From Cyanobium sp. WAJ14-Wanaka (GTDB lineage: Bacteria; Cyanobacteriota; Cyanobacteriia; PCC-6307; Cyanobiaceae): 64,000 nt of DNA. The notes under the pieces were generated by a model. That model saw only the letters and a list, made by a program, of their open reading frames with translations, made no database searches and was not told the DNA's origin. The stretch is from NCBI RefSeq assembly GCF_024345375.1, contig NZ_JAGQAZ010000001.1:124001-188000 (forward strand). The letters are read 5' to 3'. A program made the position numbers and the translations under genes. This document shows, piece after piece, positions 61,592-63,304 of this stretch. Numbering within the stretch: the stretch's first letter is position 1; each line of letters starts with the position of its first letter.

Positions 61592-61915
61592 CTAGAGGTA
61601 CTTGCTAATCGTGCTGGAGAGGGTGGTCTTGGGCACGGCACCCACAACCGTATCCACCTTCTGGCCTCCCTTGAAGATCATCAGGGTGGGGATACTGCGA
61701 ATGCCGTACTGGCTGGCCACGTTGGGGCTTTCGTCGGTATTGAGCTTGAAGACCTTAATCTTGCCCTCAAACTCCTTGGCAATTTCGTCAACGATTGGAG
61801 CCACCATGCGGCAAGGACCGCACCAAGGCGCCCAGAAATCAACCAATACGGGCACATCACTTTTGAGCACGTCCTGCTCAAAGGAAGCGTCGGTAACTGC
61901 AGCGGCGCTCGACAT
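61592..61915 (-). CDS. trxA: Thioredoxin TrxA
   Basis: 107 residues. Active site WCGPC at 31-35, cis-proline IPTLMIF. It is the m-type general thioredoxin. It follows Yfr1 and guaB3 on the minus strand; the 200-base gap holds Yfr1 and presumably the trxA promoter. Confidence 0.95.
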
Positions 61916-62041
61916 CCTTGCGTTGATACGGGTTATTGGAATCTAGCAACGTTGCCTTGCGCCTACCAGCGCTTCTCTTCAAGCGTTGCATTTGCAGCCA
62001 GTTGCAAGCCAGTTCAGGGGCAGCTGCAGCTGGAAGAAGAC

Positions 62042-62063
62042 AAAAAGCCCGGACGCGCCGGGC
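62042..62063 (-). terminator. Rho-independent terminator of Yfr1
   Basis: Stem GCCCGG/CCGGGC with a 5-base loop and five T residues on the minus strand, forming the 3' end of Yfr1; guaB3 read-through may also end here. Confidence 0.85.
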
Positions 62064-62100
62064 CGGAGGGTGTGAGGAGTGTGTGGGCCGAAGCCCCCAC
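62042..62100 (-). ncRNA. yfr1: Yfr1 small regulatory RNA
   Basis: On the minus strand the guaB3-trxA gap reads as a 5' hairpin (GUGGGGGC, UUCG loop, GCCCACAC with one mismatch), the Yfr1 motif ACUCCUCACAC (plus-strand complement at 62070-62080), then a hairpin and five U residues. This is the published Yfr1 layout and position (between guaB and trxA) in cyanobacteria. Yfr1 acts as an antisense regulator, for example of porin mRNAs. Ends are from the visible promoter and terminator, so exact bases are inferred. Confidence 0.9.
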
Positions 62101-62106
62101 AAACTA

Positions 62107-62112
62107 AAGATA
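62107..62112 (-). promoter_or_regulatory. Candidate -10 element for Yfr1
   Basis: TATCTT on the minus strand ends 6 bases before the G that would be the first base of Yfr1. It lies just after the guaB3 stop (62117). No strong -35 is visible, since that region is inside guaB3. Confidence 0.5.
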
Positions 62113-62116
62113 GGCC

Positions 62117-63304
62117 TTACTTGCCCATCCCTAGCTGCTGGGCTTTTTGATACACCTTGCCCTCCGTGAGCAGGGATGGGGCCACCACCACCTCCACTTT
62201 TTGCATCTCCTTAATGGTGCGGGCACCGAGGGTTCCCATCGAGGTTTTGATGCAACCCAGCAGGTTTTGGGTGCCATCGTCGAGTCCAGCTGGGCCCCGC
62301 AGGATTGTTTTCAGGCTGCCGGTGGTGCCCACTTTGATGCGGGTGCCGCGGGGCAGCACGGGGCTAGGTGTGGCCATGCCCCAGTGGAATCCCCGGCCTG
62401 GGGCCTCCTGGGCGCGGGCAATAGGTGAGCCAATCATCACAGCATCGGCCCCGCAGGCCAAGCATTTACAGATGTCGCCGCCGGTGACGATGCCGCCATC
62501 GGCCACGATCGGCACGTAGCGACCACTTTCCTCGAAGTAATCCTGGCGAGCTGCGGCACAGTCGGCCACGGAGGTGGCCTGGGGGATGCCAACGCCCAAA
62601 ACGCCGCGGGAGGTGCAGGCGGCACCCGGGCCAATGCCCACCATTACGCCTGCGGCGCCGGCTCGCATCAATTTGATGGCCACGTCGTAGGTGACGCAAT
62701 TGCCGATGATCACCGGCACACCGAAGTCGCGGCAGAGGGCCTCGAGATCAAGGCTCTCCTGGCCGGCCGGACCGATGTGTTCGGTGCTGACCACCGTTGC
62801 CTGCACAAAGAACAGGGAGGCGCCGGCCTCGGCAATGGCCTTGCCAAATTTGATCGCTGCCACGGGGGTGGCGCTGACGGCCGCAATTCCTCCCCCCTGT
62901 TTGATTTCTGCAATTCTTTGGCGGATCAGATCTTCGCGAACAGGCTGGCTGTAGAGCTCCTGCATTAGGGGCACAAACTCCTCTTTACCCACGGCGACAA
63001 TCCTGTCCAGCACGGGGTTGGGGTCGTCGTAGCGACATTGCACACCCTCAATGTTCAATACGCCCAGGGCGCCCAGCTTGGTCAGCTCAACGCACATGCC
63101 CACATCCACCACCCCATCCATGGCGCTGGCGATGATCGGGATCTCCAGTTGCAGTCCCCCCAGGCTCCAACTGCTGTCAGTGACTGCTGGATCCACGGTG
63201 CGGCCGCCTGGCACCAGGGCAATTTCGTCAATGCCGTAGGCGCGACGAACAGTGCGGGAGCGACCGAGCTGAATGTCCACCTGAATATTCCGTATTCGGG
63301 CCAA
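62117..63304 (-). CDS. guaB3: GuaB3-type IMP dehydrogenase family protein
   Basis: 395 residues without the CBS domains of classical IMPDH. The active-site cysteine is C230 in GIGPGAACTSRG, with KLMRAGAAGVMVG before it and VADGGIVTGGDICKCLACGADAVM after. It starts ARIRNIQVDIQLGRSRTVRR, the GuaB3 N terminus. Cyanobacterial GuaB3 has been reported as a genuine IMP dehydrogenase. It is upstream of Yfr1 and trxA. Confidence 0.9.
   Translation of the reverse strand: MARIRNIQVDIQLGRSRTVRRAYGIDEIALVPGGRTVDPAVTDSSWSLGGLQLEIPIIASAMDGVVDVGMCVELTKLGALGVLNIEGVQCRYDDPNPVLDRIVAVGKEEFVPLMQELYSQPVREDLIRQRIAEIKQGGGIAAVSATPVAAIKFGKAIAEAGASLFFVQATVVSTEHIGPAGQESLDLEALCRDFGVPVIIGNCVTYDVAIKLMRAGAAGVMVGIGPGAACTSRGVLGVGIPQATSVADCAAARQDYFEESGRYVPIVADGGIVTGGDICKCLACGADAVMIGSPIARAQEAPGRGFHWGMATPSPVLPRGTRIKVGTTGSLKTILRGPAGLDDGTQNLLGCIKTSMGTLGARTIKEMQKVEVVVAPSLLTEGKVYQKAQQLGMGK

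Follow-up and report, generated by a model that had tools for sequence, protein, structure and literature searches.

The window analyzed here, a 64,000-nucleotide stretch of Cyanobium sp. WAJ14-Wanaka DNA, contains a gene for the small RNA Yfr1 on the minus strand (positions 62042 to 62100), located between guaB3 upstream (62117 to 63304; TIGR01304, 514.6 bits) and trxA, coding for thioredoxin, downstream (61592 to 61915; TIGR01068, 140.3 bits), with all three genes on the same strand. Yfr1 is a regulatory RNA of roughly 60 bases that is present in almost all cyanobacteria. The placement between guaB3 and trxA on the minus strand had been read in the initial annotation, and it is borne out by the two protein family matches and by the guaB-yfr1-trxA order, the published arrangement in the majority of cyanobacteria (PMC2190773, Table 2); this synteny is a majority feature of Yfr1 and is not required for membership in the family.

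The Rfam Yfr1 model (RF01116) matches positions 62100 to 62044 of the minus strand over its full length (1 to 59) with 66.5 bits against a cutoff of 38, with E values of 5.5e-11 for the window and 4.3e-13 for the genome, and the Rfam search returned this as the sole match in the 2.14-Mb genome. Together with the end of the T-tract at 62042, this predicts a transcript of ~59 nt, compared with 54 to 69 nt for the abundant discrete transcript expected of a Yfr1. A covariance search had been proposed as a check when the RNA was first named Yfr1; its result is clearly positive and confirms that an unannotated small RNA was correctly read from raw sequence. The identification is based on the covariance score and the comparative evidence described below; the folding energy relative to shuffled sequences (z of about -1.3) is in itself weak evidence, as the region is GC rich. 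A neighboring hit to SNORD105 (61964 to 62036) was rejected as a chance match, since it scored 24.8 bits, below the cutoff of 45, and belongs to a eukaryotic family.

Among related genomes, Yfr1 was found in 53 of 60, and its 11-nt motif lies downstream of guaB3, within ~360 nt, at 74 of 80 named guaB3 loci. In the interval from Yfr1 to trxA, some Prochlorococcus loci share a string resembling GCGACCGTCA, which was dropped from consideration, as only 5 of 75 loci have it and it is absent here. A weak terminator-like hairpin on the plus strand (62130 to 62142), inside the 3' end of guaB3, is probably due to chance.

Structure of the RNA and its putative promoter

The 5' end of the RNA forms a 20-nt hairpin (62081 to 62100, minus strand), supported by the fold, the pairing, and covariation, with arms at 62100 to 62093 and 62088 to 62081 and a UUCG loop at 62092 to 62089. 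It contains seven pairs and one G-A mismatch, G62097 opposite A62084, the single mismatch to which the initial annotation had drawn attention. Of 39 distinct picocyanobacterial hairpins, 34 have no pair at the equivalent position and 5 form a standard pair there, as do 2 of the 26 alignment sequences. The mismatch is therefore no defect and is instead a conserved 1x1 internal loop of picocyanobacterial Yfr1, in keeping with the published model of a 5' stem-loop of 6 to 10 bp that tolerates no more than a single bulge or internal loop (PMC2190773).

The hairpin is followed by the 11-nt motif ACUCCUCACAC (62070 to 62080, minus strand; ACTCCTCACAC as read on the DNA from 62080 to 62070), which is perfect, is invariant in the alignment of relatives (A1), and is unpaired in the predicted fold between the two stem-loops, as is typical of the family. 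Within it, UCCUCAC is complementary to an extended Shine-Dalgarno (SD) sequence. The genome contains the motif itself a single time, and the one further copy lies on the reverse strand of Yfr2. An intrinsic terminator (62042 to 62064, minus strand) completes the RNA, with a GC-rich 7-bp stem spanning 62064 to 62046, a CGCGU loop, and a U-tract at 62046 to 62042. The UUCG hairpin, the motif, and the terminator can thus all be read directly on the minus strand, as had been claimed.

Covariation was assessed for the given structure in 26 distinct relatives, with shuffled sequences and sliding of the pairing partner as controls. In total, 91.5% of cells were paired, compared with 24 to 53% after the partner had been slid, and 17 cells were changed on both sides, compared with 8.5 (standard deviation, 2.6) in the shuffles. 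At least one double change was seen at each of five pairs, mainly 6-15 of the 5' hairpin and 44-50 of the terminator, whose helix is 97.8% paired in relatives with changes on both sides. Compensatory changes across relatives are thus present in both Yfr1 helices, and RNAalifold without constraints returned the same structure minus the pair at position 4.

Upstream of the RNA, a putative -10 element, TATCTT, is located at 62107 to 62112 on the minus strand, 6 nt ahead of the predicted first base, G62100. The pattern TANNNT is found at -12 to -7 from the first base of the hairpin in 68 of 83 relatives and in 0 to 5 of them at 29 other offsets, and this positional conservation backs the -10 and the start base originally proposed. 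The promoter search found no -35 box or full sigma-70 promoter at Yfr1, and support for the promoter is thus limited to the -10. We infer that Yfr1 is transcribed in this organism, and its own promoter would lie directly after the guaB3 stop codon and give rise to an RNA of ~59 nt that stops at a terminator of its own.

Alternatively, Yfr1 could be an element of the guaB3 3' untranslated region that is produced by read-through and processing and has no promoter of its own, with the terminator merely ending the guaB3 mRNA. The guaB3 stop codon ends just 4 nt ahead of the -10, which lacks a recognizable -35, and the terminator would end guaB3 transcripts as well. However, the distance between the -10 and the first base is kept in relatives whose guaB3 stop-to-Yfr1 gap ranges from a few to more than 50 nt, and hence TANNNT is not a by-product of the coding sequence; furthermore, the Yfr1 RNAs described in the literature are abundant and discrete, including those with a gene other than guaB upstream (PMC2190773). 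We therefore regard an origin from the guaB3 transcript as very unlikely. That the sequence resembles Yfr1 by chance or is a decayed copy with no function has even less to recommend it: the mismatch in the 5' stem and the modest folding z-score could be taken to point that way, but the genome-wide E value, the occurrence of the mismatch as the family norm, and the intact motif, terminator, and -10 leave it a negligible probability, and the covariance and comparative results have, in effect, already refuted it. We are highly confident that the locus carries an intact, complete, typical, and functional Yfr1.

Porin ribosome-binding sites and the Yfr2 RNA

A genome-wide search for the complement of the motif ahead of a start codon, GTGTGAGGA-N(3-10)-ATG, yielded three sites, each of them at the 5' end of a por_somb porin gene. 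The sites GGTGTGAGGACCCCG-ATG (L185) and GTGTGAGGAACACC-ATG (L186) are those of intact genes and have duplex energies of -19.3 and -16.3 kcal/mol, respectively; the remaining one is a porin 5' end that has been cut off. In the genus (16 genomes), porin starts account for 27 of 32 GTGTGAGGA sites and fall into two paralogous groups. When 40 porin genes from 17 picocyanobacterial genomes, including the window's own, were picked without reference to the motif, 33 had a perfect complement of at least 8 nt within 25 nt before the start codon, at the SD sequence, a count that overstates the number of independent events, as the leaders are partly paralogous. Shuffling of the flanks around a kept GAGGA gave a mean of 2.6 of 40 genes, with the few shuffles that recreate the motif also reaching 33. 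At the porin sites, conservation extends to the 4 nt preceding the SD core. Two broader target screens were uninformative: duplex energy at gene starts has a background that reaches -18.9 kcal/mol and overlaps the targets, and the 11-mer complement with one mismatch gave fewer matches genome wide than the reversed control.

Of the four por_somb genes in the genome, one has no site and another has a start that could not be placed. The porin gene without a site (L184) lies outside the window (G000:C1:950169-954900, L317), and a porin 5' end with GTGTGAGGACCACCATG is found at ~954790, ~4.2 kb upstream of its intact frame. The intervening DNA is other sequence, including, by eye, a Fur-family-like reading frame, and a 77-nt stretch is present at both the cut-off 5' end and the L184 frame with 95% identity. 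This looks like a rearrangement that severed a porin from its regulated leader.

The genome encodes a single Yfr2 RNA (Cyano-1, RF01701; L031, G000:C2:125983-126055), in which GTGTGAGGAGTG, close to the 5' end, is perfectly complementary to Yfr1 over 12 nt (-23 kcal/mol). Apart from the Yfr1 locus itself, no exact complement of the motif occurs elsewhere in the genome. Yfr2 relieves repression by Yfr1 in Prochlorococcus MED4 (PMC6778093), and in vitro binding of Yfr2 to Yfr1 has been shown for Nostoc (PMC6974561). Multiple Yfr2 copies with shorter Yfr1 complements are found in many other genomes. The perfect 11-mer is present in 1 of 11 Yfr2 copies from genomes without Yfr1 versus 23 of 59 others, a gap that mostly follows clade and is confounded by Yfr10-like RNAs.

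Genomes without a Yfr1 match still keep the porin site, and the partner there may therefore be a different RNA that shares the motif, such as Yfr10. In several of these genomes (G022, G025, G028, G031, and G035, with loci L228-L231, L235-L237, and L240, and G023, with L318), we noticed the 11-nt motif in other RNA-like contexts: in those of the Prochlorococcus type, it is located in the loop of a hairpin (CGACACTCCTCACACAAGTTTGTCG), downstream of which lies a terminator-like hairpin, and in G023, it precedes a terminator-like hairpin. These motif-bearing RNAs resemble Yfr10, and both porin and Yfr2 sites are kept in the Yfr1-less genomes where seen.

Proposed function

Sequence comparison reveals complementarity of Yfr1 to the porin sites and to Yfr2 that is present here and conserved, and Yfr1 most likely acts by antisense pairing that tunes porin production. 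In the proposed mechanism, the two hairpins would keep the 11-nt motif single stranded, allowing it to pair with the ribosome-binding sites of porin mRNAs (GGUGUGAGGA and GUGUGAGGA, 4 to 5 nt ahead of the AUG) and block translation, while Yfr2 would titrate Yfr1 through its 12-nt complement and thereby release the porins. By analogy with other cyanobacteria, we infer that both porin repression by Yfr1 and titration by Yfr2 take place here. The MED4 porins PMM1119 and PMM1121 are described as repressed by Yfr1 in a report that refers to Richter et al. 2010 for this point (PMC6778093), and targets of Nostoc Yfr1 are paired mostly at translation start regions (PMC6974561).

Yfr1 might instead act mainly on other targets, in carbon and nitrogen metabolism or the cell wall, with GTGTGAGGA at porins being a strong ribosome-binding site that is kept for other reasons. 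CRAFD-Seq in MED4 tied Yfr1 to 206 mRNAs (PMC6778093), cell wall genes are among the Nostoc targets (PMC6974561), and weaker sites, such as TGAGGAG before an ATG, are common in this genome (45). Against this, every exact 9-nt site at a start codon in the genome belongs to a porin, and the 4 conserved nucleotides upstream of the SD core are not needed for ribosome binding. We consider a mainly non-porin role unlikely, though a serious alternative, and porins probably the main target of Yfr1.

The family, the locus, the porin targets, and the antagonism by Yfr2 have all been published; what might be new is confined to the family-wide pattern of porin sites, at most a modest extension of a known interaction. 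This pattern suggests that the Yfr1-porin link validated in MED4 may hold across the family. More tentatively, and at a little short of even chances, we propose that the chief role of Yfr1 in freshwater and marine picocyanobacteria is to regulate porins, that nearly all major porin ribosome-binding sites are held by selection as Yfr1/Yfr10 targets, and that genes losing the site by rearrangement escape control. If the family-wide link is true, outer membrane permeability would be a core output of this ancient RNA. The sites also provide a short, testable target list for this picocyanobacterial group.

Comparison with known systems

Enterobacterial small RNAs of the MicF/MicC type pair as antisense RNAs with the start regions of porin mRNAs. 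The same mode is proposed here for Yfr1, which is unrelated to them in sequence and origin, and, in contrast to this type, we know of no demonstrated Hfq requirement for Yfr1. Regulation of ompF by MicF is mentioned in PMC6202907. Prochlorococcus Yfr10 has the same 11-nt motif; however, in the Yfr10-like RNAs of relatives a different hairpin borders the motif, and for the RNA at 62042 to 62100 a Yfr10 identity is ruled out by its Yfr1 structure and synteny, with the one further copy of the motif in the genome accounted for by Yfr2. The closest counterpart is the Yfr1 of Prochlorococcus and marine Synechococcus (RF01116), which has the same length, the same two hairpins, ACUCCUCACAC, and the guaB-yfr1-trxA order, as well as the conserved -10, the complementarity to porin SD sequences, and the Yfr2 partner. 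Nothing of substance separates the two; the RNA described here has UUCG as its loop and, downstream of the motif, CCUCC as the spacer instead of more A-rich sequences.
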